DNA of 33,303 nucleotides. Source: Pirellulales bacterium (lineage in GTDB: Bacteria > Planctomycetota > Planctomycetia > Pirellulales > S012-138). Location: the NCBI GenBank assembly GCA_028066245.1, contig JALCBR010000054.1, positions 1 through 33,303 of the forward strand, in the 5' to 3' direction. The notes under the pieces are model-generated. The model did not search any database. It saw only the letters and a program-made list of their open reading frames with translations, and was not told where the DNA came from. The first letter of the stretch is position 1. Each line of letters begins with the position of its first letter. The translations under genes and the position numbers were made by a program. Shown here piece after piece: positions 2,937 to 18,234 of this stretch.

Positions 2937-3167
2937 ATGCTTGCCAAGCTCACGACGTTCTCCCTTCTGGGGATTGATGCCTTGCCCGTTGAGGTCGAGG
3001 TTGATGTCTCCGCCGGCGCTTTGCCTAAGACGGTTTTAGTGGGGTTACCCGAGGCGGCCGTTCGCGAAAGCACACATCGCGTCGAGCGAGCGATTGTCAA
3101 CACAGGCTTTCAGCGTCCCCAAGCTCGCGTGGTAATCAATCTTGCTCCGGCGCGGTGCCCCGGTTGA
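2937..3167 (+). pseudogene. comM: comM/yifB 5' fragment, cut by the island
   Basis: This is the start of a ComM/YifB family protein (Mg-chelatase-like AAA+ ATPase; in competent bacteria ComM is a helicase aiding branch migration during transformation). The N-terminal S5-like fold is recognisable: MLAKLTTFSLLGIDALPVEV, then KTVLVGLPEAAVRESTHRV and the family signature VVINLAPA. After that the frame enters island DNA, reads four foreign residues (RCPG) and stops. The remaining ~440 codons lie 15.1 kb away at 18262-19588. The fragment lacks the Walker A and B motifs and cannot be functional alone. No clear ribosome binding site precedes the ATG. Precise excision would restore the gene. Confidence 0.93.
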
Positions 3168-3173
3168 AACAGA
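3122..3173. other. attL junction
   Basis: The left junction joins host comM (up to about 3148) to island DNA. The predicted 2-bp crossover is CC at 3147-3148. The island-side arm (3149-3173) contains CCCC and GTTGAA, which pair as an inverted repeat with TTCAAC and GGG in the arm at the right end (18235-18259). The integrase stop codon (3136-3138, minus strand) lies on the host side of the crossover. Confidence 0.75.
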
Positions 3174-5136
3174 CAGATTCGTCGCCGGACGCGGGGAAAA
3201 TCTCGACCCTATCGAGGATGCTGTCAGGTCGATTCGCCGCCTTCGTCGGCTTGTGGATGAAGTGGCACTCGATACGGTCGATAACCGCTCTCAGTGCCGC
3301 CGCCTTCGCCTTCCCCGCGGCGTCTTGGTCAATGACCAGCTCGGCGGCTTCGAGAGCCTTGGCACGGCGGAGAAGCAGCGAGCCGAGTTCGTCTACTTTT
3401 TCGGACAGGTTTTCCAACTGTCCTTCACACTGCTCGATAAGCTCTTCGAGCTCCTCGATTTTGTTCAGCACCTTGGCGCGAGCACGCTTCGGGAGTTCCA
3501 AGAGCTCCTCGGTCAGTCGGCTGTGTTGCGACTCGAAGTTCGCGAGAGCAGCCTCGTAAACCGGTTTGCGTTCCTCATAGACTTGCGCCCATAAACGAGG
3601 GTCTGGCATCGAGTGGTCCGTGCCGTCAATGCAGTCAATGCAGGTCATCATCGGCGGATCCTCGAAGTAATCGCCTACTTCCTTGCCCATGCGGGTGAAC
3701 AGCTTGCCGCGTTCTTCATGAAGATCCTCTAACTCACGAGCGCACCGGCTCACGGAATCTGAGTTACCAGAGTACGGCTTCTCGATTGCTTCCAGAATCT
3801 CGGCATGCTGGTCGTGAACGTAGGTCATCACGATTTCTTCGAGCACTTCTGCCTTGACCCGATGGCACCGGCAACCGGATTCGTTCTTGTTGCCGTGCTT
3901 GTTGTATTGGGAGCAGAAGTACGAAGGTATGTTTCCGCTTTTCGTCGATGCGTTCGCGTGCATTCCTTTCCCGCAACGAGCACAGACGAGGAATTCCTTC
4001 AACCACATTCGGGCGGTCTGCGGCGGTTTTCGATCTTTGCGACTGTGCAATTCGCTGCTTTCACGAATCTTGTCCTGGACGCGGTTGAAAAGATCGACTG
4101 GAACTAAGGGGTCGAAGATTGGTTCGTCTGGTTGCCACCAGTCCGATTGCTCTCGTCGCCGTCCCATCTTGACCGGTCCTGAGTCACGGTCAACTTCTCG
4201 AACTTCTCCGTCCTTGTATTCTGCGAAGCGACTTCCCGCGCGCTTGTTGCCTGCTGGCAATCCGATGTAGGCGGGGTTTTTAAGCAGCTCCTGAATGCGC
4301 GTTTTGTACCAACTCTTTCCGCCTGCGGTCTCAACTTCGAGATCAGTAAACCGTTCTGCGATCTTCCGTGCGGACAATCCTTCCTCATCGTACCACTGGA
4401 ACATTTTCCGAACCCATTTGATACGTTCCAAGCGAATCGAGGGACGCAGCACGAGATAGTCGCCTTTGTCTCGACCTGGGACGTTACCAGGACCGTCGTA
4501 ACGTTGATGTTCCACCCAACCATCACCATCTGGCAGATACATCACGCGTTGGTCGCGATTGTCTTCCTGGACCAGCCGCCACTTGATGTTGCCTGCGGAG
4601 TCGAAGCAAACCTTGTCGAGACCGAACGGGGGAACTCCACCTTGCCAGCGCCCCTCACGTTCCTTGCCAATACGTCCGGTAATCGAGCGGTGCCCCTTCT
4701 CTCGCTGCTCCCGGCTGCTCGTCAGTGCGCCGACGGTCGCCTGAAGAACGGTCGCGTCATCGCTTCGCGAAAGGCAACCTTGTGATACGCTCCACAACCG
4801 AACTCCGTACCCGCGAAGCTGATTGATGAAATGCCCGAACTCGTAAACGTCGCGAGTACCGAAACGGTCCTGCGAGTCAACTACGATGGCATCGACTTCG
4901 CCACTCTCGGCGACTCCCAACATGCGTTGGAAGTTCACTCGCTTGTCGGCTTTGTCGCGAGGGTTCCGACCTTTGGTGTCGTCGAACCAGTTCACGATCT
5001 CGATGCCGTGTTTCTCCGCCCATTCTTCGATCTGGGTGCGTTGGCGAGTTGCGTCTTGCCGGTCAGAAGATACGCGGAGATAGGCGACCACTCGCTTATC
5101 TTGTAGAGATGAGGGCGCATGCGTTAACGTTGTCAT
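3136..5136 (-). CDS. Large serine recombinase (integrase of the island)
   Basis: This 666-aa protein is a large serine recombinase that would integrate and excise the island. The resolvase catalytic domain covers about residues 14-150: AYLRVSSDRQ contains the probable nucleophile Ser23, and SQDRFGTRDVYEF the conserved arginine region. The recombinase domain follows (about 165-350, with SARKIAERF and LLKNPAYIG). A zinc ribbon comes next (CARCGKGMH at 385, then C408 and CRC at 422-424). A coiled-coil segment of about residues 560-620 (EELEELIEQCEGQLENLSEK) precedes the tail. The ATG at 5136 has a clear AGGTGG ribosome binding site 6 nt upstream; an in-frame start at 5190 has none. The gene lies at the island's left edge and its last four codons run through attL into comM DNA, so the C-terminus differs between the integrated and circular forms. 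Confidence 0.95.
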   Translation of the reverse strand: MTTLTHAPSSLQDKRVVAYLRVSSDRQDATRQRTQIEEWAEKHGIEIVNWFDDTKGRNPRDKADKRVNFQRMLGVAESGEVDAIVVDSQDRFGTRDVYEFGHFINQLRGYGVRLWSVSQGCLSRSDDATVLQATVGALTSSREQREKGHRSITGRIGKEREGRWQGGVPPFGLDKVCFDSAGNIKWRLVQEDNRDQRVMYLPDGDGWVEHQRYDGPGNVPGRDKGDYLVLRPSIRLERIKWVRKMFQWYDEEGLSARKIAERFTDLEVETAGGKSWYKTRIQELLKNPAYIGLPAGNKRAGSRFAEYKDGEVREVDRDSGPVKMGRRREQSDWWQPDEPIFDPLVPVDLFNRVQDKIRESSELHSRKDRKPPQTARMWLKEFLVCARCGKGMHANASTKSGNIPSYFCSQYNKHGNKNESGCRCHRVKAEVLEEIVMTYVHDQHAEILEAIEKPYSGNSDSVSRCARELEDLHEERGKLFTRMGKEVGDYFEDPPMMTCIDCIDGTDHSMPDPRLWAQVYEERKPVYEAALANFESQHSRLTEELLELPKRARAKVLNKIEELEELIEQCEGQLENLSEKVDELGSLLLRRAKALEAAELVIDQDAAGKAKAAALRAVIDRIECHFIHKPTKAANRPDSILDRVEIFPASGDESVCFNRGTAPEQD

Positions 5137-5262
5137 TGTTCCACCTGCTCTTTGTGTTTGTGGGACCACGCCCCCGGATGTTCGCAGCATCGCGGGGGCA
5201 CCTTTTTGAAACGACGCATCCTACCGTATGCGTCCGCGATCTGGAACTGTGACGATGGTCCG

Positions 5263-5298
5263 ATAAAAACGGCGACTGGGACGGGTCCAGTCGCCGTT
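5263..5298 (-). terminator. Intrinsic terminator after the 90-aa gene
   Basis: On the minus strand a 12-bp perfect stem (AACGGCGACTGG pairing with CCAGTCGCCGTT, arms 5268-5279 and 5287-5298) with a 7-nt loop is followed by TTTTTAT. It sits 26 bp downstream of the small gene ending at 5324 and about 130 bp upstream of the integrase start. It would separate the two transcripts. Confidence 0.88.
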
Positions 5299-5323
5299 CT
5301 CTCTTCCGACCCGTAAAGGTTTG

Positions 5324-5596
5324 CTAGTTGGCCGGTATCCCAAGGATGTTGCAGTGCACCTCGTGGATGCTGTCGCCGCCGTAGATTTCGCGAAGCTCGT
5401 TAGAGATCTCTTGATACTCTTCGAGAACTTCGCCGTCGATGACGATCAACTCTTGATCTCGGCTGTGCGCAGTGACCGAAACGGCACGCAGAAACTCATC
5501 GCAGGGCATTTGCACAAATTCGGCGTCGAGCAACATCAACGGTCTGATGAGATCTAGGTGCTCAGCCTGCTCATTGATCAGTTGTCTTGTTCTCAT
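5324..5596 (-). CDS. Small acidic hypothetical protein, 90 aa
   Basis: The product is not recognised. It is a 90-residue acidic, probably helical protein with repeated leucine- and glutamate-rich stretches (QLINEQAEHLDLIRPLMLLD, VLEEYQEISNELREIYGGD) and no signal peptide or membrane segment. Support for a real gene comes from a good ribosome binding site (GGGAG, 8 nt before the ATG) and an intrinsic terminator just after the stop. It stands alone between the zincin/nuclease pair and the integrase, pointing the same way as both. A small regulator or excision-factor role is possible from its place next to the integrase, but it shows no helix-turn-helix that I can see. Confidence 0.6.
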   Translation of the reverse strand: MRTRQLINEQAEHLDLIRPLMLLDAEFVQMPCDEFLRAVSVTAHSRDQELIVIDGEVLEEYQEISNELREIYGGDSIHEVHCNILGIPAN

Positions 5597-6222
5597 ACTT
5601 GTTCTCCCGTTTTGAAGTAAGTGTTTGCCCCATACTTAATAGATACCGATTTGCCCCCCTCCCAGCACTTGAGATGAAAAGTATTTCTCGGATTCGATCA
5701 ATCTCGTTCGTAGTTCAGCGGAATTACGAACGAGACCGGTTTAATTGCAGAAGACCTTCTTGAAAACGGCTTCGTTCCAGAAGACGTTCTTAGATCTTGA
5801 ATCCATGCCGGAGGGGTCAAAATCTGGTAGCGGCGTATGGCCGATTACGCGGAAGCGTTTTCGGTTTTCAACTGGGGAGAAAAGTGTTGAACTTCATCGT
5901 TCCAGCCGAGTTCAGGTTCTAACGATTGTTCTATTCCCTGATAGGGGCGGCTGGCTGGTGGTGGTATCAGCAGGGCATGGTTGAGCATCTCGCATTCCAC
6001 GCCCCCGCATTTGCGCTGGTGCCCTTCTCGCGCTGTTCTGCGCTGTTGACCTCGATAGAAACGGGTCGATGATGCTGGTGGATTCGTTCCGATGTGGAAC
6101 GATATGAAACGGTAACCGGGTCGAGTACCAGTCGATCCCGGTTACCTAGAAACCGATCTACATAGGAGATCGACATCATTGCTGGAACGAAGGTTTTTGA
6201 CGCTCGATTTCGTTAATACTTA
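5597..6222. other. Non-coding gap with several inverted repeats
   Basis: No convincing gene is seen in this 626-bp stretch. It holds a 10-bp perfect inverted repeat (CTCGTTCGTA, 5703-5712, with TACGAACGAG, 5725-5734). It also has a 14-bp motif CAGAAGAC(C/G)TTCTT occurring twice about 33 bp apart near 5747 and 5780, and a row of three hairpins at 6084-6168 (listed separately). A poly-G/C tract lies near 5654-5663. It probably contains the promoter of the 90-aa gene, but no clear hexamers stand out. Confidence 0.5.
6084..6168. repeat. Row of three perfect hairpins
   Basis: Three inverted repeats follow each other. The first is CGTTCC/GGAACG with a 5-nt loop. The second is GGTAACCGGG (6111-6120) with CCCGGTTACC (6137-6146), extended inside by TCGA/TCGA. 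The third is CGATCT/AGATCG near 6149-6168. None is followed by a T-run on either strand, so they are not simple terminators. Confidence 0.6.
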
Positions 6223-7062
6223 CTAGGAGTCGGAAGCATGCCTGCTTCGCAATTCCTCGAACGCCTCCTTGTAGCCATTCGATGCAAGCTCTAGGAGAAT
6301 CGCCCGCGCGCTTTCGTTCCGAAATTCAACGTTCGGAATGACACCAGGATTAGTCGGTGAGGATGGTCGCTGTATTTCGAGGGAGAAATCAAACAGCGTA
6401 ACTTTGCTACCGTTCGAATCTTTGGCGAATACGCTGTACTCCATCGTCTTCAGGAGTTTCTGGTCAACCTTATCACAGCACGAAACCGTATTTACGTATA
6501 GGTCGTAGCCGCTCTTCCCAAGTTCATTTTGCAATCGTCGGATAAGCTCTTCGATGCCCCGGTTTTGAATCTTCCGATTAACATCTCTGTGTGCGAGAAG
6601 AATCCCGTATGGCGCTTCAACACCGAATCCAGCACCAACTTGATGGCACCATTCGTGATTCGGATGCCCCCAGTCCGATCCTTTGGTAGTAAAGTTCTGA
6701 AAATTCTGAGGTCCAGCAGGACTGCCAAGCTTCACCTCAATCGCTGTGATTCCCGGCTCTGGTCGGCGCACCAAACCGTCTCGGTGAAACTGGAGCCTCT
6801 CTCCGGTTCTTGGTAGATCAGGAAACTCGGACCAGTGAGAGGCAATATGACCTGTTTCGTTAAACCCATCATGCGTTGTTGAATGCGCGACCTCATCCGC
6901 TGATGGTGCCTCCGCATAATTGCCATCGGCGAGTGGGACTGGCATGTCCAAGAAGGACTTACCGGGCTCCATCTCGTTTTGGACAAAGGAACGCTCCACG
7001 TCAGTGAGCGAGCGAATTTCTCGTACCTCAACTTTGTGCGACTCACCGAAGCAGCCTGTCAT
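6223..7062 (-). CDS. Candidate PD-(D/E)XK nuclease, partner of the zincin protein
   Basis: This 279-aa protein is not recognised as a named family. A possible PD-(D/E)XK nuclease core is visible: D95 (QFHRDGLVRR), then E109-V-K111 on a hydrophobic strand (GITAIEVKLG). This is the D-x(13)-E-x-K spacing typical of that superfamily. After it comes an unusual His/Trp/Cys-rich patch (GHPNHEWCHQVGAGFGVEAP) that could complete an active site or bind metal. The C-terminal third is mixed alpha/beta with no membrane segment. The start at 7062 overlaps the stop of the upstream gene as ATGA and has an AAGGGGAA ribosome binding site, so the two genes are translationally coupled and probably act together. 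An ATG at 7131 would add 23 unsupported residues. The nuclease reading is a motif-level inference only. Confidence 0.72.
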   Translation of the reverse strand: MTGCFGESHKVEVREIRSLTDVERSFVQNEMEPGKSFLDMPVPLADGNYAEAPSADEVAHSTTHDGFNETGHIASHWSEFPDLPRTGERLQFHRDGLVRRPEPGITAIEVKLGSPAGPQNFQNFTTKGSDWGHPNHEWCHQVGAGFGVEAPYGILLAHRDVNRKIQNRGIEELIRRLQNELGKSGYDLYVNTVSCCDKVDQKLLKTMEYSVFAKDSNGSKVTLFDFSLEIQRPSSPTNPGVIPNVEFRNESARAILLELASNGYKEAFEELRSRHASDS

Positions 7063-8990
7063 GACACTTCCCCTTCGCCTAAGTGTGCTCGAAATTCTCT
7101 GATCCAATCGGCAGCACGAGATTCTGGCCAAACAATGCGATCAAACTCCTCTACGAGCTTTGATTGCAACTCAGGTATCAAGAAGTACAACATACCTAGG
7201 TTTGCTGGCATTGGCTTTAACTGATCCGTGAGCAACGGCAGTTCACTTTCGAAAACGGTCATAACATTGATCAAACCGAGAATCTCCAAGTTTGCAAACC
7301 CTCCCGTCGTTTGCAAGTCTTCGTCATTGCATACATCAGCTCCCACGTTTGCAATCGCACTGCGCACCCAATCCAGCAAAATGAACTGCTGGTGGCATTC
7401 TTTAGCAAACCCAAATGAACCGGACAAACCTTGGGAAATACCCGGTGTCACGATACGCCGGTAGAATCTACTCAGCTTTGCTTCAATTCTCTTAAAGTAT
7501 GAGTCGCAAAACTCAACAAAACTGGGTTTTACACTCCGTGAATGAAGCGTCATTACGGTAACCACGTAGGGAATGCGACCCAAGTCCCTAAACAATCCCT
7601 CAACCTCAATCTGCTCCGCTTCATTCAATGTAAGTTTGCTGAGGGCGGCGGTAACCGCGTCGCCATACTGAGCTTCCCAGCAACTCAGGAAGGATTCTGA
7701 AAGTTGTTGCCACAACCGCCAAAATCCCTGCGAGGTAAGCTGCCCGTGAATATGAGCTTCGAACAGCATATATTTGCAGAAACGTGGGCTCCCGGACTCG
7801 ATGAGTCTTGTTTGAAATATGTCGATAGCCAATTCCGAATAGTGCTTTGTCGCCAAAGTACTACCAGTGGTGCTTGAAAGCTCGGAGAGCCTTCGGGCGG
7901 CATAACCTTGAAACTCCACAGCTTGCGCTCTCATCGCAAGATTCGAATCGGATTGCATCGCTTGGGCAAGCGACATGAAACACTTCTCAAGTTCGTCTGA
8001 TGATGAAGCTCCGACATCGAGACGAAGTTTCATTCGAAACAGTTCCATTCGTCCGCACAAGTCAGACTTCGCAACACTCTCAAGCCTTGGTGCCGCGAAA
8101 CGCTCACGAAAAGGATTTACACCTTTGGGCTTCTCGGTGTGCGACAGGCAGGCGACGGCACTCTTCAATGCTTCGACCTCGTTTGCCGCATCGGCAAGAC
8201 TGCTTACCGAAAAATTCCCGAAATAGCACGGAAAGAGGTCTTGGCCTCTTAGTTCAAGAACGGGCACAAGTTGAATAAAAACATCAAAGGCCAAGGCAGC
8301 AAAGAGCCGCGCGTCGATCTCGTAAGGACTATCTGAGTGGTTGCACTCCTCATCCGTATGGACGCAGCGTGGAAGACTACGGCGAAAGCAATTGACCAGG
8401 AAATGCCGGAACTCATGGAGCGCGCCGACCTCAATTGTTCGCCTTAGCCAGCCTGCTGTGTGAGGAACTTCGTCTCCATCACTTTCCAAGATGACGCGAT
8501 TGGTTTCAAGTACGACTGAACATCTTATAGTGCTGTCTTTGTCTGTATATCGACTGGGAAAAACTTGCGCAATCTTGTCTCCAGTATCAATGCTGCGATG
8601 CACAAGCTTCATCTGGTACGACGACGACGGAATGTCCGAGGTAGATGCGAGGAAGTCCATTAATCTCAAAAACGCGATTCTTGCGCGATCGCACTGGCTG
8701 GCGTCCTTCGGGACTTCGAACTCCCTGTGTCCATGAGTAACCGCGTAGATGGCGCGAGCCGCCATCCATACTTCCAGGTAGAATCTTTCCGATTGCCACT
8801 CGCGAAAGAAGTAGTCGGCTGCCTCGCCCCAGTAGGCGAGGTAATCGTCCTCCGCTTCAAACGGGCGATCAGGTTCATTCCATTGAACATGATCAGCAAC
8901 AAAGTCGTCATCTGGATGACGATTCGCGTAGTGGTTGATCTGGCGAAACAGCGCCCGCCCCGGCGCGCTATCTAGGGTCAGAACACTCAA
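7059..8990 (-). CDS. Large zincin-like protein with HExxH motif
   Basis: This ~643-aa protein is not assigned to a named family. Residues near 190-235 read VGALHEFRHFLVN, then 28 residues on PYEIDARLFAALAF. The HExxH motif plus a downstream glutamate in an E-x-D-A-x-x-F-A-A context resembles the metal site of ImmA/IrrE-like (M78) zincins, which cleave regulators or act as sensors. The N-terminal ~180 residues and the long, largely helical C-terminal ~380 residues are unlike the small ImmA proteins, so this would be a multidomain relative if the match holds. I prefer the TTG at 8990, which has GGGGAG 6 nt upstream; the frame is open to another TTG at 9065 without a ribosome binding site. It is coupled (ATGA) to the candidate nuclease gene. 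No signal peptide or transmembrane segment is seen, so a cytoplasmic role is likely. Confidence 0.75.
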   Translation of the reverse strand: MSVLTLDSAPGRALFRQINHYANRHPDDDFVADHVQWNEPDRPFEAEDDYLAYWGEAADYFFREWQSERFYLEVWMAARAIYAVTHGHREFEVPKDASQCDRARIAFLRLMDFLASTSDIPSSSYQMKLVHRSIDTGDKIAQVFPSRYTDKDSTIRCSVVLETNRVILESDGDEVPHTAGWLRRTIEVGALHEFRHFLVNCFRRSLPRCVHTDEECNHSDSPYEIDARLFAALAFDVFIQLVPVLELRGQDLFPCYFGNFSVSSLADAANEVEALKSAVACLSHTEKPKGVNPFRERFAAPRLESVAKSDLCGRMELFRMKLRLDVGASSSDELEKCFMSLAQAMQSDSNLAMRAQAVEFQGYAARRLSELSSTTGSTLATKHYSELAIDIFQTRLIESGSPRFCKYMLFEAHIHGQLTSQGFWRLWQQLSESFLSCWEAQYGDAVTAALSKLTLNEAEQIEVEGLFRDLGRIPYVVTVMTLHSRSVKPSFVEFCDSYFKRIEAKLSRFYRRIVTPGISQGLSGSFGFAKECHQQFILLDWVRSAIANVGADVCNDEDLQTTGGFANLEILGLINVMTVFESELPLLTDQLKPMPANLGMLYFLIPELQSKLVEEFDRIVWPESRAADWIREFRAHLGEGEVS

Positions 8991-9185
8991 GTGGAACTCC
9001 CCGCAACACGAGGGGTCAGTGCGCAGCGGAGCGTTGGCTTGATCAGTAATTGTTGCCCGTCGCAAGGCAACGTTCTGATGGTTTCAGTTGAATCCATGAC
9101 CCCCCCTCAAAATCCTGGAATTACGTGTGGAGTATTGTCGCCGTCACGAATCTGCGTTTCCCCGGACTTGATTCTGCTCCGCTCT

Positions 9186-9773
9186 TCACCATTCCCGTTG
9201 CTTCATCCGTTCCAGTCGAGCCTTTGGATTGATCGACTGAACATACTTATCGGTCGTCGCGATACTGCTGTGACCGAGCTGCTCTTTGATGTCGAGCAAT
9301 GAGATCCCCTCATCAACCATCTCGCTTGCGCCGGTCCGCCGAAGACCGTGCGCATGAACTCGCTTCTCGATTCCTGCTTTCGCCGCCAGCTTCGGTAACT
9401 TCTCCCTGATTTGCGCGGTCGCAATCTTGCCGCCTCGGAGCGTACAGAAGACCGGCTGGCGACCATTGACACCGTCTAGGTGTGACCGTGCCTCCATCCA
9501 GACGGCGAGCACATCGAGGCACTTCTGATCAACCGCGACGGTGCGGTACTTCTTACCCTTGCCGATCTGGACGCGGACAGTGCCGTCTGGTTGGATGTCG
9601 GACGGCTTCAGGCGAAGTGCTTCCGAGATACGAAGCTGTGACCGCCAAAGGAAACAGATTAACGCCCGGTCTCGCTTGCCAGTCGGTGCTCGCTTCGAGC
9701 AAGCATCCATCAGCGAAGTGACCTCTTCGGCAGTCAGAACGGAGGTCTCGAACGTCTTCCCCTTATTACCCAT
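9186..9773 (-). CDS. Short tyrosine recombinase, catalytic domain only
   Basis: This 195-aa protein is a tyrosine recombinase/integrase. All six expected catalytic positions are visible: R48 (LRISEALRL), a lysine in the GKGKKYRTV beta-hairpin (about 74), H142 and R145 (HAHGLRRTG), H168 (EQLGHSSIA) and Y177 (TTDKYVQ). The N-terminal SAM-like core-binding domain of full-length integrases is missing; the protein starts only ~45 residues before the first catalytic arginine. The ATG at 9773 has GGAG about 9 nt upstream. The frame stays open to 9917, but that extension runs through the inverted CGTAAGTAT repeats and looks non-coding. The island already has a serine integrase at its end, so this one may resolve multimers, act on an internal site, or derive from a nested element. 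Confidence 0.88.
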   Translation of the reverse strand: MGNKGKTFETSVLTAEEVTSLMDACSKRAPTGKRDRALICFLWRSQLRISEALRLKPSDIQPDGTVRVQIGKGKKYRTVAVDQKCLDVLAVWMEARSHLDGVNGRQPVFCTLRGGKIATAQIREKLPKLAAKAGIEKRVHAHGLRRTGASEMVDEGISLLDIKEQLGHSSIATTDKYVQSINPKARLERMKQREW

Positions 9774-9795
9774 CGTTTTCAGCTCCGATTTCCTA

Positions 9796-9878
9796 ATACT
9801 TACGCTTTTTATTGTTATCGTAAGTATATCGGGGTTTAGAACGGGGTGAAGCGAAGATTTTGGCAAAAGCGTAAGTAT
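9796..9878. promoter_or_regulatory. Three CGTAAGTAT repeats upstream of the tyrosine recombinase gene
   Basis: A 9-bp sequence occurs as an inverted pair (ATACTTACG at 9796-9804; CGTAAGTAT at 9819-9827, 14-bp spacer) and again as CGTAAGTAT at 9870-9878. The pair lies 23-54 bp upstream of the ATG at 9773, the usual place for an operator or a recombinase binding site. A fourth exact copy lies at 18226-18234 beside attR. Confidence 0.6.
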
Positions 9879-9997
9879 TTCCGAAAACCGGCGCATGAAA
9901 AACCCGCCGCCATGCAAGATAAAGGAGCATGACGACGGGCACCGTCAACGGAAGCTCGGAACCGACTTCCGTCCATCGCCCACCGAGGGTGGTTCCG

Positions 9998-10807
9998 CTA
10001 GATGTTCGGAAATTCCGCTTTGATCTGTCGCATCTGCTTTTTGTAGGATTGCCAGCGCTGGAACGAAACGGGATCCTGCCCTCCGCTACTGTGATACTTC
10101 TTGGCTTCTCGTTCGCAGGCTCCAGAGAGTTGAGCAAACTTGGAGATCACGTCTGGAGGTGCGGTCTTCGGAATCGGTGCCGGACCTTGCCGGTCTCGTC
10201 GCCGCTGTTCTTTGATTTCTTCGATTCTCGCTTCCGTCGCCTTGAGTGCTTTGTTTGCGAAACTGAATTGACTGAGGACAACAGAGTCACCGCCGGATGG
10301 ACCGTACTGCGAGCGGAGCTTCTCGACGACCTTTCTCTGATTCTCGCGGGTGTCCATCAAGTCGGCGAGTTCATCACTTTCGAGTGCTCTACGAGTCTTC
10401 CGAAGACTGTTCGGCAACATTTCCGAAATCGTGTCGCGGTTGATCGGACGAGGGTTGCCGTTGTCATCCTTGACTTGGATCGTGCCGTTGTACTCGCACA
10501 AGCGGTCGGTGAAGAATTCTTCGGCACCCGCGATGCCCCCGACTTGCTCGACCGCCTCTTTCAACTTGCCCGATGCCTCGCGGCGAAGTTTGTTTGACTG
10601 GCGAGTGGAGGTGAACTTCGAGACGAGGTCCGCCAAGTCTTCGGGAATTTCGATTGGCTCTTCCTCACCAGCGTTACGTCTGGCGATGGCATCTTCTTGA
10701 AGCTCAGTCAATTGTGCGATTTCTGCGCTGTAGTCTTCGCCGCTATCTTCGGCATCGACCAGAGCGCTTGTAAGTTGGTCACACTGTTCTGAAAGTGGAT
10801 TGGACAT
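9998..10807 (-). CDS. Hypothetical charged helical protein, 269 aa
   Basis: The product is not recognised. It is 269 aa, highly charged and predicted mostly helical, with coiled-coil-like stretches at the N-terminus (EIAQLTELQEDAIARRNAGE) and in the middle (FANKALKATEARIEEIKEQR). There is no signal peptide, membrane segment or cysteine cluster. The ATG at 10807 has GGAG 9 nt upstream, followed by TTCCGAA touching the start codon, the same arrangement as in the next gene upstream (11094). It lies in a run of leftward genes (12271 to 9186) that probably forms one transcription unit. A structural or DNA-associated accessory role is possible but not shown. Confidence 0.65.
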   Translation of the reverse strand: MSNPLSEQCDQLTSALVDAEDSGEDYSAEIAQLTELQEDAIARRNAGEEEPIEIPEDLADLVSKFTSTRQSNKLRREASGKLKEAVEQVGGIAGAEEFFTDRLCEYNGTIQVKDDNGNPRPINRDTISEMLPNSLRKTRRALESDELADLMDTRENQRKVVEKLRSQYGPSGGDSVVLSQFSFANKALKATEARIEEIKEQRRRDRQGPAPIPKTAPPDVISKFAQLSGACEREAKKYHSSGGQDPVSFQRWQSYKKQMRQIKAEFPNI

Positions 10808-10857
10808 TTCGGAAGTCTCCGTTATTGATTGGGCAAAGGTTGGACGGTGTTTCGGAA

Positions 10858-11094
10858 CTAACGTTGAGTTGCGTTCTCGATGGTGGCTCCGCTGATTGCT
10901 TCATGCGGAATCACATTGAACCGTCTGGTGATCTTGATGGGAGACGCATCGGTAACGTTCTCCAGAACTACTTCCGGAGGTTCGTCACGACCGTCGATGC
11001 TTTGAATCATCGCGCCGCCGATGTACACGTTGATGCAGGTGCCACGATCTCGTTCCTCAGGCTTGTCTGTTTCGAACGTTAGTTTGACCTTCAT
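10858..11094 (-). CDS. Small hypothetical protein, 78 aa, probably beta-rich
   Basis: This 78-residue protein is not recognised. It alternates polar and hydrophobic residues (KVKLTFETDK, CINVYIGGAMIQSIDG, ITRRFNVIP), which suggests a small beta-sandwich or barrel. A ribosome binding site AAGGA lies about 8 nt before the ATG, and the bases directly before the ATG read TTTCCGAA, as they do at the 269-aa gene downstream. The 50-bp gap to that gene holds another TTCGGAA copy (10851). It is likely co-transcribed with its neighbours. No functional inference is justified. Confidence 0.55.
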   Translation of the reverse strand: MKVKLTFETDKPEERDRGTCINVYIGGAMIQSIDGRDEPPEVVLENVTDASPIKITRRFNVIPHEAISGATIENATQR

Positions 11095-11101
11095 TTCGGA
11101 A

Positions 11102-11394
11102 ATCCTTGGTGGGTTGTGGTTGAAGGAGAGACGACGAGTGAGTGAACGCCGTTTCCTCCGTTTTGGCTGTTGAATGCCGGTTTCCGCTTCCGCTCCGCTT
11201 TACGGCTGGAGGTTGAAGCTTCCTTCCTCTGGGATGTCCGGGGTGGAATCCCGCTGTGTTCCCGCATCGTCTTTGGTTCTTCCTGGAAGACGATCTTCTC
11301 TCTCTGATTACTGGTGAGATTCCTTCTACGCGGGATTCGGAAATTGTCGTTTTGGGATCTCTCGTAATTGGATTCGGGAATTCGGAAATCGGCT
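11102..11394. other. Gap without a convincing gene
   Basis: Two overlapping minus-strand frames are open here (11057-11398, 113 codons; 11091-11438, 115 codons). Both give low-complexity Arg/Ser/Pro/Asn-rich products, overlap neighbouring genes and lack good ribosome binding sites. Neither is accepted. The stretch contains TTCGGAA at 11336 and 11381, with a third at 11402 just outside, so it may be regulatory. Confidence 0.4.
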
Positions 11395-11742
11395 TCATCG
11401 GTTCGGAACCTTCCGTCCGGCGTATCGGTACATTGCAATTGCCAACCTTCGAGTTTCCGCCGCTTGTCCGCTTTCGCTTCCGGTGAGTTTCTCCAGAAGG
11501 TCTGCTTTAGCGTTCAAGGCGGCTGGCGATGTGAGGTCCGTTGCTCTGAGCAAGTGAACAGGTTCATCACCGTCGATCTCTCCGAGTTCAAGCATCCCGC
11601 GAAGTTGTCCGAGTTGATCTAAGAGTTCTCGAAGTTTCATTTTTTTGTTCGTAATCAAGGGCGGGTAACTTCTGAAATCAGACCGGTATTGCATCGAGTT
11701 AGAGCCGGTTTTTTCCGTTATAGGCGTTCCGGTATCCGGCAT
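11395..11742 (-). CDS. Small hypothetical protein, up to 115 aa
   Basis: The product is not recognised. The credible part begins at the internal ATG at 11640 (MKLRELLDQLGQLRGMLELG): an 81-residue helical protein with leucine spacing fit for dimerisation, then a Leu/Ala-rich segment (NAKADLLEKLTG) and a basic tail. The longer start at 11742 lies 10 bp after the stop of the upstream helix-turn-helix gene, which favours translational coupling. The extra 34 residues look less protein-like and neither start has a strong ribosome binding site. It belongs to the leftward gene run. It could be a partner of the upstream gene, but this is only position-based. Confidence 0.5.
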   Translation of the reverse strand: MPDTGTPITEKTGSNSMQYRSDFRSYPPLITNKKMKLRELLDQLGQLRGMLELGEIDGDEPVHLLRATDLTSPAALNAKADLLEKLTGSESGQAAETRRLAIAMYRYAGRKVPNR

Positions 11743-11752
11743 TGGTTATCCA

Positions 11753-12271
11753 CTAAGTATTCGTCAACGGACCCTCGTCAGCGGAGTCGATTGGTCGTTG
11801 TGTTAGCTTCTCAATCTTCGAAGCGATCTCAGGCGGCAGTTGCTTCCCCGTCACCGTTGTCGTCTTCTTTTCGTCTGGCACCTCTTTGTCGAATCGGTTC
11901 AGCAGTCTTTTCACGACTCGTGCAAGTTGCGTGATTGACTCTTTCAATTCTTCCGAAGGGTTCGCCCATGATTTTGGAAGAGACAGATTCGCGTGTTCCC
12001 GTTGGATTCGTTGGAGCGCGTCTTCGATCCACAACAGGTGATCGAGAGCTTCGGCGGTTGCGAACTCGTGGAAGAGCTTCTCTCGCTGCTTCCGGGTTGG
12101 CTCGCGCAGTCGTGTGTAAGTTCTCCGCGCAGCGATGCTCCGAGCGGTGCTGTCTGAAACACCGTATCGTCTGGCGAGCGTCATTCTCCGGACTTGTCCG
12201 TTCTCGGATTCGATGCGCAATCGTTGCACCATATCTGTCGGTAGTCGTTTCTGATTCTGAGGTGTGCTCAT
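11753..12271 (-). CDS. Helix-turn-helix protein, 172 aa
   Basis: This 172-aa protein has an N-terminal helix-turn-helix: LARRYGVSDSTARSIAARRTY at about residues 33-53 fits the resolvase/transposase-type HTH (helix, GVS turn, recognition helix). It is followed by a helical middle (RKQREKLFHEFATAEALDHL) and a charged C-terminus. The mix suggests a DNA-binding regulator or a small adaptor rather than an enzyme. It is divergent from the sigma-like gene (ATG at 12363), with 91 bp between the two start codons, a layout common for a regulator that controls its neighbour. It is first in the leftward run where TTCGGAA motifs are frequent, so it is one candidate for binding them. The start lacks a strong ribosome binding site. 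Confidence 0.68.
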   Translation of the reverse strand: MSTPQNQKRLPTDMVQRLRIESENGQVRRMTLARRYGVSDSTARSIAARRTYTRLREPTRKQREKLFHEFATAEALDHLLWIEDALQRIQREHANLSLPKSWANPSEELKESITQLARVVKRLLNRFDKEVPDEKKTTTVTGKQLPPEIASKIEKLTQRPIDSADEGPLTNT

Positions 12272-12362
12272 AAGTCGTTTTCGCTCGCGATCATTCGTCG
12301 GCGGGAATACTTCAAATGAAGGTTACGCGTCCAACAGAAAACCGATCCACGAGACACTATTC

Positions 12363-13610
12363 ATGAGCGAAGAATCTTTTGACGCATCACCCATTCCAGG
12401 ATTGACGGAGTGGGTGAAGGCTGGACCTGTGCCGGGTGAACCAGAATCAGACGCTCTCTTCCGCGATAACGTGGGTCTCGTCTTCTTCTTTGCAAAGCGT
12501 TGGTGCAACGCTCTTCGAGAGATGCGAGCTGTCACCAAGGAAGACATCCACAGTGCGGTGTACGCGGCGACTATTAAAGCTTGCCAGTCTTTTGACCCGT
12601 CCAAAGGCGAGGTGAGCACGTACGTCGGGACATGTGTCAATCGCGCGATGTCCGACTTCATAAACGAGTACGGACTTTTTCCGATGCCTTCCGGCGCACG
12701 CGGCAAGGTCGCTCATTGGCAGAGGTTTCTCGACGAGCATGGACGCCTGCCCGATCTGGAGGACGAATGCAACTACAGCGGCGACGATGAGGCACTTCAG
12801 AAGCTCGCCAAGCAACTAAGAGGTGGACGGGCGGTAATGAGTCAGAGATCGTATGAGACGACGCTTGATGCCCTCTGGCTGTCTAATTGTCAAGTGGGAG
12901 GTATCGGGGAAACGGCGGTCTCGATGACGGAGGATCTCCGGGTAGAGGCTTTTTCCCGGCATACCTACGACTGCAACTCACCAGACGCGGAGAAGTACCG
13001 GGAGGATCGAGTTTGCGTCTGGTGCGGAGAGACTTACCGCATGGAGCGAGACAACGGTGCCACTACGCAATACTGCTCGAAGGAATGCCGCGAAGCTCAC
13101 TTGGCGGTTCCAGCAAGGAAGTGCAGAGGCTGTTCAAAGAGGTTCCGACCGACACCGGATAAGCCGAGAGCTTCCTATTGTTCGGAAGAGTGCAAGAAAC
13201 AAACGGAATCCAAGAAGCGAAAAGAGAGCTACGAGAAGACAAGAAAACGGAAGCCGGTTAAGAAGATCTGTGCCGAGTGTGGCACTGAGTTCGAAACCAA
13301 TCATCCGAGAAAAACCTTTTGCTCCGTCGCATGTCGTGACAAGAACCAACTACGTCGGCTTCAAAAGGAGTCAGCGGAGAAACGAAAGGCGACAATCAAA
13401 ACCTGTCCGCAATGCGAAGAGCGGTTCACACCGGAGAAATCGCTTGCTCAGAAGTATTGCTCGGAAGAATGTACGCGGCTGGCGACCAACGAAGCCAAGA
13501 GGGAAAAACGACGACGACCGATCGTTCAGGTTGGGGTATGCTCTTCACCCCTTCAATCAACCTCCCTCCAGACGGCGACGATCTGTACGACGGTTTCTAC
13601 GGCGGTGTGA
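12363..13610 (+). CDS. Sigma-70-like protein with four C-terminal zinc knuckles
   Basis: The first ~175 residues of this 415-aa protein resemble sigma-70. Region 2 is FRDNVGLVFFFAKRW ... TKEDIHSAVYAATIKACQSF, then DPSKGEVSTYVGTCVNRAM (residues 33-100). A region-3-like segment follows, RFLDEHGRLPDLEDECN (121-137). No region 4 (the -35 binding HTH) is seen. Instead there are four treble-clef-like knuckles of the form C-x2-C-x(13-16)-C-x3-C: C218/C221/C238/C242, C254/C257/C273/C277, C303/C306/C320/C324 and C348/C351/C366/C370. They are separated by Lys/Arg-rich linkers. The protein may bind core RNA polymerase while the fingers bind DNA or RNA; this is an inference. ATG 12363 was chosen because the family-like sequence follows it and the 12264 frame start overlaps the divergent gene. 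It is the only rightward gene of the island. Confidence 0.8.
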   Translation: MSEESFDASPIPGLTEWVKAGPVPGEPESDALFRDNVGLVFFFAKRWCNALREMRAVTKEDIHSAVYAATIKACQSFDPSKGEVSTYVGTCVNRAMSDFINEYGLFPMPSGARGKVAHWQRFLDEHGRLPDLEDECNYSGDDEALQKLAKQLRGGRAVMSQRSYETTLDALWLSNCQVGGIGETAVSMTEDLRVEAFSRHTYDCNSPDAEKYREDRVCVWCGETYRMERDNGATTQYCSKECREAHLAVPARKCRGCSKRFRPTPDKPRASYCSEECKKQTESKKRKESYEKTRKRKPVKKICAECGTEFETNHPRKTFCSVACRDKNQLRRLQKESAEKRKATIKTCPQCEERFTPEKSLAQKYCSEECTRLATNEAKREKRRRPIVQVGVCSSPLQSTSLQTATICTTVSTAV

Positions 13611-13702
13611 GATTCACCGCGCGCGCGGTAGCTGACTGTCGAAGAGCAGATTCTCTTTATAACCACGGTTATAGTTTGAGTTGCCGCACGCGCGGCAACT
13701 GA
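13538..13702 (+). CDS. Possible small ORF overlapping the sigma-like gene end
   Basis: A 54-codon frame starts with ATG at 13538 inside the 3' end of the sigma-like gene, in another frame, and runs through two of the CG palindromes to a stop at 13702. The predicted peptide (MLFTPSINLPPDGDDLYDGF...) looks mildly protein-like at its start, but the rest is dictated by the palindromes. Upstream GGTTGGGG is only a weak ribosome binding site. It could equally be a chance frame; a frameshift fusion to the sigma-like protein is another possibility. Confidence 0.2.
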   Translation: MLFTPSINLPPDGDDLYDGFYGGVRFTARAVADCRRADSLYNHGYSLSCRTRGN

Positions 13703-13732
13703 TTGTCGCCGGTTTTATCGCGCGCGCGATAA
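13616..13732. repeat. Cluster of four palindromes with CG-alternating cores
   Basis: Four perfect dyads lie in 117 bp: ACCGCGCGCGCGGT (13616-13629), TATAACC/GGTTATA (13658-13673), AGTTGCCGC-ACGC-GCGGCAACT (13679-13700) and TTATCGCGCGCGCGATAA (13715-13732). The first and third are each followed by a related string (GCTGACTGTCG and ACTGATTGTCG), so they look like diverged copies of one unit. No T-run follows any of them. Confidence 0.75.
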
Positions 13733-14034
13733 CTCTCCCGGCTCACGTTGCTTGATCTTCTCAAGAAGAACTTCTCGAAAAACGCCGTCGCCCGAAAACC
13801 TCCAACTTCAGGCATGGACGACTGGCGGTGAACGGACCAGGGATGCAAAACCGGAGTGATTTAGTGGTTACAGAACGGTGCATTGCCGCTTTACGGCTCA
13901 CACCGGCATAGCAGACGGCTTTCAGCGGTTGTTCACAGTCGATTCCGCTGTTCCGAACAAACGCAGTATTTCAGAAACCGTAGTTTGCTGTTACTGAAAC
14001 CGGTTTCGATTTGGTTCACCCCTGCGGGGTTCAC

Positions 14035-14065
14035 CACAAATCACACGCTGCGCGTGTGATTTGTG
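14035..14065. repeat. Perfect 14-bp inverted repeat with TGC loop
   Basis: CACAAATCACACGC (14035-14048) pairs perfectly with GCGTGTGATTTGTG (14052-14065) around a TGC loop. It directly follows a smaller hairpin ACCCC-TGC-GGGGT (14018-14030) with the same loop. There is no T-run on either strand. Confidence 0.8.
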
Positions 14066-14213
14066 ATTGTTCAGAACAAACGTTTTGAGCTTATCCGTTG
14101 CCAGAGCTTCTATCCGGTGAACCCGTTTCAGTTTCCGTTTTCTATCACCAGCCGTAGAAACTGAAGAAACCGGGAGTCTTCTGGGGTTGACGGTCGGGCT
14201 GGGAAGGCAGACC

Positions 14214-14261
14214 GGGTCTTTGCCGTTTTTCCAGAAGCGGTTCTGGAAACAGCAAAGACCC
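14214..14261. repeat. Long hairpin of two stacked stems
   Basis: An outer 10-bp stem (GGGTCTTTGC, 14214-14223, with GCAAAGACCC, 14252-14261) encloses an inner 9-bp stem (TTTCCAGAA, 14228-14236, with TTCTGGAAA, 14241-14249) capped by a GCGG loop. The internal loop is asymmetric (4 nt against 2 nt). It could fold as RNA or as a single-stranded DNA cruciform. Confidence 0.75.
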
Positions 14262-14439
14262 CTGTGTTGTCTGTGACGTATAGGACCGGTCAGACGAGCC
14301 GAGCGAGTTCTGATTTTGATTATCCCAGTCGAACTCTTGAACTTTGCACTGGTCGCACCACCGTCTCCAAGAGACGACGACTCGAACGAATCGAGGAAGG
14401 GTATAAAAGACCCGGCTAAGAAACCCCTTGCGTGCTATC

Positions 14440-14870
14440 TTGGTGAGCCTCACCAACGGTCTGGGTAATCAGCCGTACCCGTTGCGCTCTCACCTCGGTT
14501 GATGCGTAAGGCGGGCATCCCGTCTCACGCTCTGTCTGGCACTCAACCGCTTGGGTGCCTTCCCCTTGCTTCCTGAACCACAAGGCTGGATCGCCGATGC
14601 TCTACTAGCAGTAGGCTAACGTCTCGGCACGGTCAGCAATGGACGTGTTTTCTGTGAGAAGCTGACCGTTGTTTTCACGACGTATGACCAATCACGTCCG
14701 CTCACTAAAGAAGCATACGTCGCGAGGTGGTTTTGCCCCAATAGAGATTCGTGCGCTATGCTTCAGATGCAAATTCGGTTGGCTTAGACGTTCGTACGTT
14801 CGCTCACAGAATCACGACGTTCAACCGAATCCGGGTGGCACCAGACTGACCGCTGGTGCCGCCTTTTTTT
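14440..14870 (+). ncRNA. Candidate large structured RNA ending in an intrinsic terminator
   Basis: About 430 nt without a credible gene form a chain of hairpins on the plus strand. These are TTGGTGAG/CTCACCAA (14440-14456), GGGTA/TACCC (14463-14480), a GCGT/CGGG two-part stem (14504-14530), GGCACTCAA/TTGGGTGCC (14538-14559), CCTTG/CAAGG (14564-14585) and GCCGA/TCGGC enclosing CTACT/AGTAG (14593-14628). Three perfect 9-bp stems with long loops follow: ACGGTCAGC/GCTGACCGT (14629-14669), CGACGTATG/CATACGTCG (14678-14722) and ATTCGGTTG/CAACCGAAT (14773-14830). The last element is the terminator at 14834-14870, whose loop (CTGACCG, 14846-14852) is complementary to CGGTCAG at 14630-14636 and could form a long-range contact. 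The 5' end is unknown; a TATAAA at 14403 might be a -10 box. I could not match it to a known class (tmRNA, group I/II intron, 6S were considered). Confidence 0.55.
14834..14870 (+). terminator. Strong plus-strand intrinsic terminator
   Basis: GGTGGCACCAG (14834-14844) pairs with CTGGTGCCGCC (14853-14863) over 11 bp with one G-T wobble, around an 8-nt loop, followed by seven T residues. No plus-strand protein gene lies between the sigma-like gene and this terminator, so a non-coding transcript is the likely client. It faces the end of the nuclease gene (14882, minus strand). Confidence 0.88.
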
Positions 14871-14881
14871 GTGCGATGCTA

Positions 14882-16027
14882 TTAGGTGTCAAACAGGCTT
14901 GGCTGCTCGTCGTGGTCGTCAGATCCTAGCAACGGGAACTCACTCGCGTCGATAAGAATTTCTTCGCCGAAACCGAGTGACTCTGGCTTAACCGAAATCG
15001 AGTCAACAGTTGTGCCCTGTGGTAGCTCCTCTAACGTCGCTATCACCTGATCTGCGAAATCAGTTAGGTTGTTTGCAATGCGCAGTTTTCCGCCTTGCTC
15101 GTCTAATTCATAAACTCGATAAAGGGAATAACTTGCTCCTCCATCGCGGATTTCAAGCAATTCCGCGAGCGAAATGTGCAGAGTTCTGCCGAAACTTCCC
15201 TTCGTCGATTTGACATCGAGTTTCGATACCTCAGCGTTCGAATGGGTGATTGTGAAATCGTAAGGGGCAATCGCGTTCTCAGCTGCGGTCCAGTCGAAAT
15301 CTGTCAATTCACCTGACTCTTTTTGGATCGCAAGATAACCGAATATCAACTCTTCGCCTTGCCGTCCAACGTCGTCGGCATTCTGCCGTGCGCGCTTAAG
15401 CTCTTCCCGCGAGATGCTGCCGCCAGACTTGCGCCGAAGCAATCGTTGCGTACCCGCAATTCCACCGACAGCAGCATCCTCCAAGTCTTGCTCAAGAAGC
15501 AATTCTCGTATTGGATGCTCGGACGAACAGTTCGATTGTTCGACAATGACTGATAAATCAGACGGGGTTATTGCCGCCATTGAACCGAATGAACCCGCAA
15601 CCAAAGCACTATGCAATGATGCATCTTCGCTTTCACCCGCTGCAATGAACACCACGCGAGCGCCGGTTGGGAAGATCTCGCCGCTAAACTCCATCACCGC
15701 ATAATCATGTCGTGCGAGTACATCAAAGCGTGGGTTTGTGATGAACTCCCCATTTAGTCGCCAGTTCTTATAGGAACCTTGCTTGATGATCTTTCGCTGG
15801 ATGTTCCACTCTGGACGCAATCCGGGACCAAATAGCGACAAATCAAGTGGGATTCGCCCGGTCTTTCCAATCTCTGTATCAGGTAACGACGGGTAGAGAC
15901 GGGACACAAATACATCGGCATTTAAGTTGATTGCCTTTTGGTTCCCTTTCTTAAGTGAGCGGAATTGCGTCTCGAATAATGTGAGGTCTGAGTAGCTCAG
16001 TTGCTTCACTGCCAACTTACGATCCAT
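14882..16027 (-). CDS. DUF3883-type nuclease, likely restriction endonuclease
   Basis: This 381-aa protein is the probable endonuclease of the restriction-modification unit. Its C-terminal half carries a DUF3883-like PD-(D/E)XK domain: GRQGEELIFGYL (221-232), YDFTITHS with D257, KLDVKSTKG with D271-V-K273, then HISLAELLEI and YSLYRVYEL, the end typical of that family. The N-terminal ~190 residues are unassigned and may recognise DNA. The ATG at 16027 lies inside the methyltransferase gene (11-bp overlap) with a GGAGG ribosome binding site, so the two are translationally coupled. The C-terminal DEQPSLFDT is a short disordered tail. The site cut is unknown. An alternative is a methylation-dependent nuclease, but the linkage to a methyltransferase and Vsr favours classical restriction. 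Confidence 0.82.
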   Translation of the reverse strand: MDRKLAVKQLSYSDLTLFETQFRSLKKGNQKAINLNADVFVSRLYPSLPDTEIGKTGRIPLDLSLFGPGLRPEWNIQRKIIKQGSYKNWRLNGEFITNPRFDVLARHDYAVMEFSGEIFPTGARVVFIAAGESEDASLHSALVAGSFGSMAAITPSDLSVIVEQSNCSSEHPIRELLLEQDLEDAAVGGIAGTQRLLRRKSGGSISREELKRARQNADDVGRQGEELIFGYLAIQKESGELTDFDWTAAENAIAPYDFTITHSNAEVSKLDVKSTKGSFGRTLHISLAELLEIRDGGASYSLYRVYELDEQGGKLRIANNLTDFADQVIATLEELPQGTTVDSISVKPESLGFGEEILIDASEFPLLGSDDHDEQPSLFDT

Positions 16028-17522
16028 CTTCGCCCTCCAGCACTTGTTTCATAACACCCCCAAGCGCCTTGGCCATTAGCGGTGGAACGGCATTCCCGAT
16101 CTGTCGGAGAGCGGCATTCATGGAGCCGGCGAAGCGAAAACCGTCAGGGAATGATTGCAGACGCGCAGCCTCTCGTACGGAGATTGTTCGGGCTTGTTCG
16201 CTGTCGTAGTGGATGTGCGAGTAGGTGTCTTTGCCGATGTGAGCCAGCAGTGTCCTCGATGGAAGAAACGATTCGAGCTTTCGCCACTTGTTTGGAAACT
16301 TGCTTGGGTCGTATGGCGGCACAATCGACTTCTTCAGCGCTTCATACTCGTCGGAACCTTCGAGAAGCTCTTCACCTTTACGTCGTCGTTTCGCCAATTC
16401 ATCGTGGAAAATCCGCATTGCCTTGTCGTGAGCTTGCGGATACTGGTCACCGGGCTCCATGACCCGAAATATCTGGTAATCGCGGGGAAGATACCTGATG
16501 ACGTGATCGTAGATGCCCTCATCGTTCTCGAATCCGCTCCAAGACCGCATCAGTCTTCCGTACGGCGTCAGCTTTCGGCGATTGTCATAGTTCGTAAGCT
16601 TGTCCAATCGCTGCGCGGCTTTCTTTAGCTTGCCGTCGAGATGCAATGTGATTGGAGGCAGATCTTGTATCGCCTGTTGGGTAGTGACAGCTGGTTCGAG
16701 ATTCTTGCATACCCTAGGCGGTTCTTGGTAACAAGTTTCTTCAAAACCAAATCGTTTCTGTCCATTATGGCTGTTTCGAAGTGCCTTTGTCGCTACGTCT
16801 CGACTTCCTTTGTAACCGGGTGGAAGGTCAACGTAGTGTGTCGGCTCCGGGAATCTGACCTGCACGTCAAGTTCCTCACGATAGGCGATTAGAAACATCC
16901 GTTCACGCATCTGAGGCACACCGAAGTACGCAGAGTTCAAGAGTGTGTAGCTCGCGACGTAGCCGTAACTCTTCAAGACTTCGCATACCTCTTCAGCGAT
17001 ATTGTGTCCGCCATAGTTCATTGCATCTGGAACATTCTCCATCAGCAGCGCGAGCGGGAGAAGTTCACTTACGTAGTGAAGGTATCGTAGGTACAGATTG
17101 CCGCGGGCATCGTTCAAGAACGCTTGGGGATGCTCGTCGATTTCACGCAACTTGGCTCTGCCAACCCGCGCGAATGCTTGACACGGTGGTCCGCCAACTA
17201 TGACATCAATGCTGTTTCCCAGCGACCTCCCTAAACGGCATTCGGCGACGAGGTCGCTTGGCTCAGTTGGAACAATGTCCCTGGCTTTGGAATGAACTTC
17301 CGTATCGCATTCGGGGAAGAAGTTGATTCCGTGCGTGCGTGCGGCGGTCTTATCGAACTCCACACTGGCAACGACATCAAACCCGCTCGCCTGCATTCCT
17401 AATGAGAGACCACCACAACCCGCGAACAAATCCAAAGTTCGGACCGAATTGCCGGAACGAATGCGTTTTATCTTCTCGCGAACTACTCGCTTTCCTTTTT
17501 TTAACTCTGTCGCCGTAATCAT
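16017..17522 (-). CDS. DNA (cytosine-5) methyltransferase
   Basis: This 501-aa protein is a C5-cytosine DNA methyltransferase that would protect the island's host sites from the linked nuclease. The motifs are complete and in order: I (DLFAGCGGLSLGMQASGF, 31-48), IV with the catalytic cysteine (GGPPCQAF, Cys114), VI (LLMENVPDAM, 159-168), VIII (FGVPQMRERMFLIA, 200-213), and IX/X near the C-terminus (ISVREAARLQSFPDGF ... QIGNAVPPLMAKAL). The long section between VIII and IX (about 220-440) is the target recognition domain. The start overlaps the vsr stop as ATGA. Its recognition sequence cannot be read from the protein. A nearby vsr suggests the modified cytosine, when deaminated, gives a T-G mismatch that needs repair. 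Confidence 0.95.
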   Translation of the reverse strand: MITATELKKGKRVVREKIKRIRSGNSVRTLDLFAGCGGLSLGMQASGFDVVASVEFDKTAARTHGINFFPECDTEVHSKARDIVPTEPSDLVAECRLGRSLGNSIDVIVGGPPCQAFARVGRAKLREIDEHPQAFLNDARGNLYLRYLHYVSELLPLALLMENVPDAMNYGGHNIAEEVCEVLKSYGYVASYTLLNSAYFGVPQMRERMFLIAYREELDVQVRFPEPTHYVDLPPGYKGSRDVATKALRNSHNGQKRFGFEETCYQEPPRVCKNLEPAVTTQQAIQDLPPITLHLDGKLKKAAQRLDKLTNYDNRRKLTPYGRLMRSWSGFENDEGIYDHVIRYLPRDYQIFRVMEPGDQYPQAHDKAMRIFHDELAKRRRKGEELLEGSDEYEALKKSIVPPYDPSKFPNKWRKLESFLPSRTLLAHIGKDTYSHIHYDSEQARTISVREAARLQSFPDGFRFAGSMNAALRQIGNAVPPLMAKALGGVMKQVLEGEDGS

Positions 17523-18001: not shown

Positions 18002-18063
18002 TTCGCAAGCTGACCTCCATGCGGGTGCGTTTTCTCGTTACTCCTGGATGGATCTGCAAAATG

Positions 18064-18092
18064 GTTATACCCTTTGCACTTTTAGTTATCAA
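18064..18092 (-). promoter_or_regulatory. Sigma-70-type promoter of the vsr operon
   Basis: On the minus strand TTGATA (18087-18092) is followed, after exactly 17 bp, by TATAAC (18064-18069). Transcription would start near 18057, giving a leader of about 55 nt before the vsr ATG at 18001. It is the clearest promoter in the island and lies only ~170 bp from the right border. Confidence 0.8.
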
Positions 18093-18225
18093 TGGTCCAA
18101 GACTTGCGGGGGAGTCGAGTTATTGCCCCTTCGCAGCGAATCTACCGCCGACTCTGACCGGTTCTGGCGACAACCGTTCTCGAATCGCGGCGACCTCCGC
18201 AGGCGCGAAAGATCTCCGAAAGTGC

Positions 18226-18234
18226 CGTAAGTAT
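18226..18234. repeat. Fourth CGTAAGTAT copy, next to the attachment site
   Basis: An exact CGTAAGTAT lies immediately outside the left arm of the reconstructed attP (18235-18259). The other exact copies lie upstream of the tyrosine recombinase gene. It may be an accessory binding site for a directionality factor or that recombinase. Confidence 0.45.

Follow-up and report, generated by a model that had tools for sequence, protein, structure and literature searches.

Does integration change the enzyme that carries it out? The question is raised by a genomic island in the window, which is the whole stretch of 33,303 nucleotides that was analysed. In this island, the gene of a large serine integrase reads leftward into the 5' part of the host gene comM and crosses attL. 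The initial annotation, made from the sequence alone, proposed that the integrated gene takes its last residues and its stop from comM, and that the joined circle would encode a longer enzyme. How serine integrases are held to one direction is a central question, and the usual answer is a separate directionality factor. Here, the C-terminus of the integrase seems to be tied to the state of the DNA.

The integrase gene and its junctions with comM

The features of the window are as follows.

2937..3151, plus strand: comM 5' part, residues 1-72 (tblastn and reconstruction)
3136..3138, minus strand: TGA stop of the integrated integrase, from antisense host comM (equivalent TGA in 8/8 comM islands)
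3136..5190, minus strand: large serine integrase gene in the integrated state (ORF and Pfam domains)
3144..3151, no strand: attL core GCTCCGGC, inside the integrase gene (gapless alignment to attR)
3144..18256, no strand: island between both cores, 15,113 bp
18120..18251, minus strand: stranded tail codons and circle-form stop TAA 18120-18122 (the integrase frame continues there only in the joined circle)
18257..18264, no strand: attR core GCCCCCGC (gapless alignment to attL)
18257..19588, plus strand: comM 3' part, residue 70 to stop (tblastn and reconstruction)

The integrase ORF encodes 684 amino acid residues from the ATG at 5190 or 666 residues from the ATG at 5136. The latter is more likely to be the start, judging from the integrases of relatives, which begin near that ATG. 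Within this one protein, Resolvase (PF00239), Recombinase (PF07508) and Zn_ribbon_recom (PF13408) were all matched above the Pfam cut-offs, and these three required domains place it among the large serine recombinases. It also resembles the SPbeta, phiC31 and Bxb1 integrases in profile and fold matches. After integration, the resolvase, recombinase and zinc-ribbon domains all remain in one ORF. As the initial annotation had it, the last residues (EQD) and the stop are encoded by comM, given that the terminal codons of the integrated gene and the TGA at 3136-3138 sit within comM. This stop is the antisense of the conserved Ile-Asn codons of comM. Thus, with comM as the target, a stop follows a few codons beyond the crossover.

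The two junctions of the window form a gapless alignment (offset, 15,113). Their attL and attR cores are imperfect, with two mismatches in 8 bp, and in the related islands G088 and G129 (see below) the core GCCCCGGC is identical at both ends (exact cores of 8 and 11 bp). The rebuilt comM is an unbroken frame of 512 residues, and comM of the genome G070 is uninterrupted at the insertion site of the window. When the ends of the window island were joined, the stop was lost for each crossover tried from 3137 to 3155 and the long frame was unchanged. The frame of the circle is independent of the exact crossover base, because the codon spacing of comM fixes the offset. It stays open for 43 codons past the lost stop, to the TAA at 18120-18122, and a 46-residue tail replaces EQD. 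The circle-form integrase would have 727 residues (ATG 5190) or 709 residues (ATG 5136). Rejoining the ends thus reproduced the predicted tail and its independence of the crossover base. The predicted forms of 666 and 709 residues also agree with relatives that start close to the ATG at 5136.

In the window itself, an open run of 43 codons would arise by chance with a probability of 0.18 in shuffled sequence and 0.34 in real island sequence. By itself, this open frame is unremarkable and constitutes weak evidence, and the case therefore rests on the relatives of the island. The initial annotation had also called the tail protein-like and basic. Its basic character is found in most islands, but a protein-like composition is no evidence by itself.

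Related islands and their stranded tails

Relatives were sought using the integrase, an alignment of relatives and a tail profile as queries. Eight planctomycete islands, that of the window included, were found at the identical comM codon. The seven further islands are G088, G129, CP036432.1 (Planctomycetes bacterium TBK1r, also G889), G534 (Pirellula sp. isolate PB1.3.31, record L027), G754, G777 and G530. Many of the genomes of relatives are draft assemblies, and the two ends of the G754 island are on separate contigs. The aligned integrases of relatives were ~31-41% identical to that of the window. All eight islands lie at one specific site, with a short shared core that is exact in G088 and G129 and imperfect in the window, in keeping with large serine integrases. 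In 8/8, the integrase crosses the junction and stops at the equivalent comM-derived TGA, including G530, whose integrase is reduced to a C-terminal remnant. The gene frame runs across attP in the seven circles that were rebuilt, and the product of the eight integrated copies is altered or shorter.

The rebuilt circles all stay open past the lost stop, for 27-67 codons (window, 43; G088, 53; G129, 67; TBK1r, 47; G534, 62; G754, 27; G777, 50), and the eighth island, G530, has a tail too. The chance product for seven such open frames in shuffled sequence is ~9e-7. Across the islands, the stranded tail codons lie ~9-19 kb from the integrase.

The far-end tails of five islands (G088, TBK1r, G534, G777 and G530) are clearly homologous. 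In leave-one-out searches, the top match was the predicted end for G088 (1.7e-15), TBK1r (9e-14), G534 (1.4e-7) and G777 (3e-6). No gaps are needed to align the tail of TBK1r with the G534 and G088 tails, e.g., LYRRFEWAEISPIYGQPWAES with LYRVYSWAEIEPIYRQPRKES. Moreover, a profile made before the right end of the G777 island was known had its best match in that stretch at that very end, beside comM residue 68. The G754 tail is short but significant (0/5000 shuffles were as good). It ranked second of 583 ORFs and the window tail first of 1147 ORFs, but with E ~0.6 (0.55 for the window; shuffle p ~0.006). The window tail has the FRRSFAPAEVAAI stretch and seems to lack the second half, which makes it the weakest of the homologous cases. 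A frameshift in the remainder of the window tail was considered and rejected, as the other frames hold nothing like the conserved second half. The G129 tail differs from the others and is a helix-turn-helix, matched by HTH_38 and HTH_7 above the Pfam cut-offs. At their ends, the tails carry varied, often basic residues. The structure proposed in the initial annotation is therefore seen in the relatives: a conserved in-frame tail is stranded at the far end of the island, and 8/8 integrated copies end at the comM stop. As read from the junctions of these eight islands, integration swaps a conserved C-terminal module for a few host-encoded residues.

The codon test covered ten tails and 28 codons starting beyond the likely attP arm, with fewer codons in the G777 pairs. 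About half of the ten tails are solo copies or remnants rather than comM islands. In the integrase frame, pS was 0.70 and pN was 0.40, with pN<pS in 44/45 pairs, which are not independent of each other, and zero stops. The other two frames had no pN<pS pattern and contained 4 and 9 stops. As far as codon comparisons go, this shows that the tails are under protein-level purifying selection in the integrase frame alone. In addition, the DNA motif AAAGCACTCTA recurs in the tails 20-30 bp past the core and looks like a putative attP half-site. The KALY residues may therefore be kept for DNA reasons.

The tail was modelled by AlphaFold on the tail alignment, with the remnant tail of G813 as the modelled sequence. 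The model has three helices (residues 2-8, 14-21 and 25-47; mean pLDDT 82, pTM 0.39), and its second part consists of a short helix, a turn and a long basic helix. No fold match was found with Foldseek and no significant sequence match in the PDB. Identification of the tail as a known domain also failed, since nothing exceeded the Pfam or NCBIfam cut-offs except the helix-turn-helix of G129. The tail is predicted to be a basic, helical module of ~45 residues, and a DNA-binding role is suggested. The model of the chromosomal form is poor as a whole (pTM 0.39) yet matches solved serine integrases. The end of this form, to which the tail would be joined, comes after the strands downstream of the coiled coil.

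Several tail homologs were found away from comM (L109:1835-2065, L110:1796-1957, L111:1694-1867, L112:19625-19735, L114:464-616 and L115:153-308). Several of them lie beside a CCGGGGC core, and no integrase of the family was found in the DNA fetched around them. At the core, L109 and L110 have 17 identical bases in common. These solo homologs are possibly attR remnants or island ends at contig edges. A further strong tail homolog, L073:1648-2019 on the minus strand (E ~2e-11), lies beside an integrase fragment that is truncated at the contig end and whose N-terminal side adjoins unrelated sequence.

Among integrases outside the comM site, those of G548, G632 and G880 (L057, L058 and L078) are related and have island DNA or sequence in common up to one att point, and their flanks differ. 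They stop 1-10 codons past att, with C-terminal residues that differ by site. The far ends were sought for the non-comM relatives G016, G061, G743, G097, G251, G548 and G632, and none was resolved. That the arrangement extends beyond comM is only suggested. A more distant integrase of G070 (L059), with 27% identity, ends in antisense comM at another site, which lies in the ATPase region. This ending suggests that comM has a second attachment site that may be used likewise. At the right end of the G129 island (L025), the helix-turn-helix tail is soon followed on the same strand by a second serine recombinase frame, which would directly follow the integrase in the G129 circle.

Possible roles of the tail

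The reading that we prefer, with a probability of about 0.6, is that attP lies within the 3' end of the serine integrase gene, that the tail aids establishment of the element and that its loss retunes the integrated enzyme. In the free circle, the attP-spanning gene would encode the full enzyme plus a C-terminal module of ~30-70 residues, basic and predicted to be helical in most islands and a helix-turn-helix in one. Recombination of attP with attB in comM would sever the module from the gene behind the zinc-ribbon/coiled-coil region. All catalytic and core DNA-binding domains are retained in the integrated copy, which gains a few host residues and the comM stop. The tail may help establishment through attP x attB synapsis or by binding beside attP, and its loss may yield a differently tuned enzyme that favours the integrated state until an excision factor acts.

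Some observations count against this explanation. The window tail is weakly homologous, seemingly without the second half, and the tail is not one domain throughout, given that of G129 differs and that of G754 is short. Some tail homologs also stand by themselves, with no integrase in the DNA that was fetched. In addition, the initial annotation had named circular or plasmid-borne relatives as the place to look for integrases with the tail. Neither a full-length fused integrase nor a natural circle was found in the collections of viral contigs, plasmids and phages, of which only the viral contigs and plasmids were searched with the tail itself.

How far the loss of the tail matters is the point on which the alternatives differ. 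By analogy with known systems, a switch between integration and excision, as proposed in the initial annotation, is plausible. In its strict form, the long enzyme would be dedicated to integration and the short one would be inactive or, with a directionality factor, biased towards excision. The conserved tail exists solely in the state in which integration happens, engineered fusions of integrases with directionality factors alter direction (PMC5737554), and the logic of mycobacteriophage BPs (PMC4557955) is similar. The truncated copy, however, retains all catalytic and core DNA-binding domains and may work normally, and no directionality factor was identified. We regard such a state-dependent switch as a tentative proposal with somewhat less than even odds. 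The same caution applies to the more specific idea that integration removes and excision restores a DNA-binding or synapsis module, so that the rearrangement itself would set the preferred direction.

Nearly even odds can be given to a passive overlap. In this case, attP would lie at the 3' end of the gene by chance, and the tail would be a native C-terminus that serves the circle and is lost without any regulatory role. Some C-terminal variation is evidently tolerated, since the integrases of G548, G632 and G880 end shortly past att, and G129 has exchanged its tail for another module. Purifying selection on the tail argues that at least the circle form needs it, and mere overlap is also countered by the comM site, where each island runs into a stop within a few codons.

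The stranded ORF might instead be a separate small gene, e.g., for a helix-turn-helix excision factor, or its conservation might reflect a DNA feature of attP. Arguments for these views are an internal ATG ahead of the helix-turn-helix in the G129 tail, an ATG of G088 in the frame of antisense comM and the occurrence of tails without a nearby integrase. For a DNA feature, the resemblance of AAAGCACTCTA to an attP half-site can be cited, but selection extends well past that half-site and is exerted at the amino acid level. In the integrated state, the sole start of the window tail ORF is a TTG at 18173, 17 codons from its end, and there is no ATG ahead of the motif in the window, TBK1r, G534, G777 and G530. 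A separate gene is therefore unlikely. Moreover, all rebuilt islands preserve the frame of the tail with respect to the integrase. Taken together, we consider a separate gene or a DNA feature improbable, and the simplest reading of the sequences is that the fused protein of the circle is what selection acts on.

Comparison with known systems and cargo of the island

The initial annotation had compared the locus with integration-dependent immunity in mycobacteriophages. In phage BPs, attP is inside the repressor gene and integration shortens the C-terminus of the repressor by 33 residues; the long repressor is inactivated by an ssrA-like degradation tag, and the integrase is a separate gene (PMC4557955). 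Similar to BPs, attP is in a gene here, the integrated product loses some tens of residues, and the state of the DNA sets the form of the protein. Different from BPs, the gene crossing attP is that of the serine integrase itself. The analogy holds as logic, but the BPs system works on a repressor, by way of a degradation tag.

In archaeal SSV-type 'suicidal' tyrosine integrases, the site is in the integrase gene and integration splits that gene; self-disrupting recombinases are termed exclusively archaeal in a review (PMC8371274). Similar to these, the recombination site is within the integrase gene and part of the gene is moved to the other end of the element. However, the archaeal enzymes are tyrosine recombinases left as two inactive parts, whereas the bacterial serine recombinase described here keeps an intact core and loses a tail. 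That a module attached to a serine integrase can set the reaction direction has been demonstrated with engineered directionality-factor fusions (PMC5737554). Those fusions are man-made and permanent, whereas here recombination itself would add or remove the module.

The comM gene is known to be targeted frequently by large serine recombinases, and in another study 12.4% of predicted site-specific integrases were in this gene family (magnesium chelatase/ATP-dependent protease; PMC10083194). The enzyme class and the kind of target gene are the same as here, and the available text of that study describes no integrase gene spanning attP and no stranded conserved tail. In the open-licence literature, no serine integrase with attP inside its own gene and a conserved stranded tail was found.

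Should direction or stability prove to be different between the long and the short form, they would constitute a self-contained one-way device, ready for use in genome engineering. Sequenced genomes show such elements in the integrated state. The enzymes in databases are therefore mainly the shortened ones, and cloned versions may be without the tail of the circle form. In Acinetobacter, comM is interrupted by AbaR islands, whose removal raises natural transformability according to the available text of the report (PMC7508600). Thus, the comM islands of planctomycetes may also affect DNA uptake.

The window island also carries a C5 cytosine methylase, a Vsr endonuclease and a protein with a NOV_C/TmtA-like C-terminal region (14882-18001), which are probably a restriction-type defence set. 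A second integrase gene, of the tyrosine type (Pfam Phage_integrase), is found at 9186-9917. Moreover, the ORF at 6223-7131 has a match to Pfam Ntox4 (bacterial toxin 4) over 56 residues, and it overlaps a 668-residue ORF that has no Pfam match.
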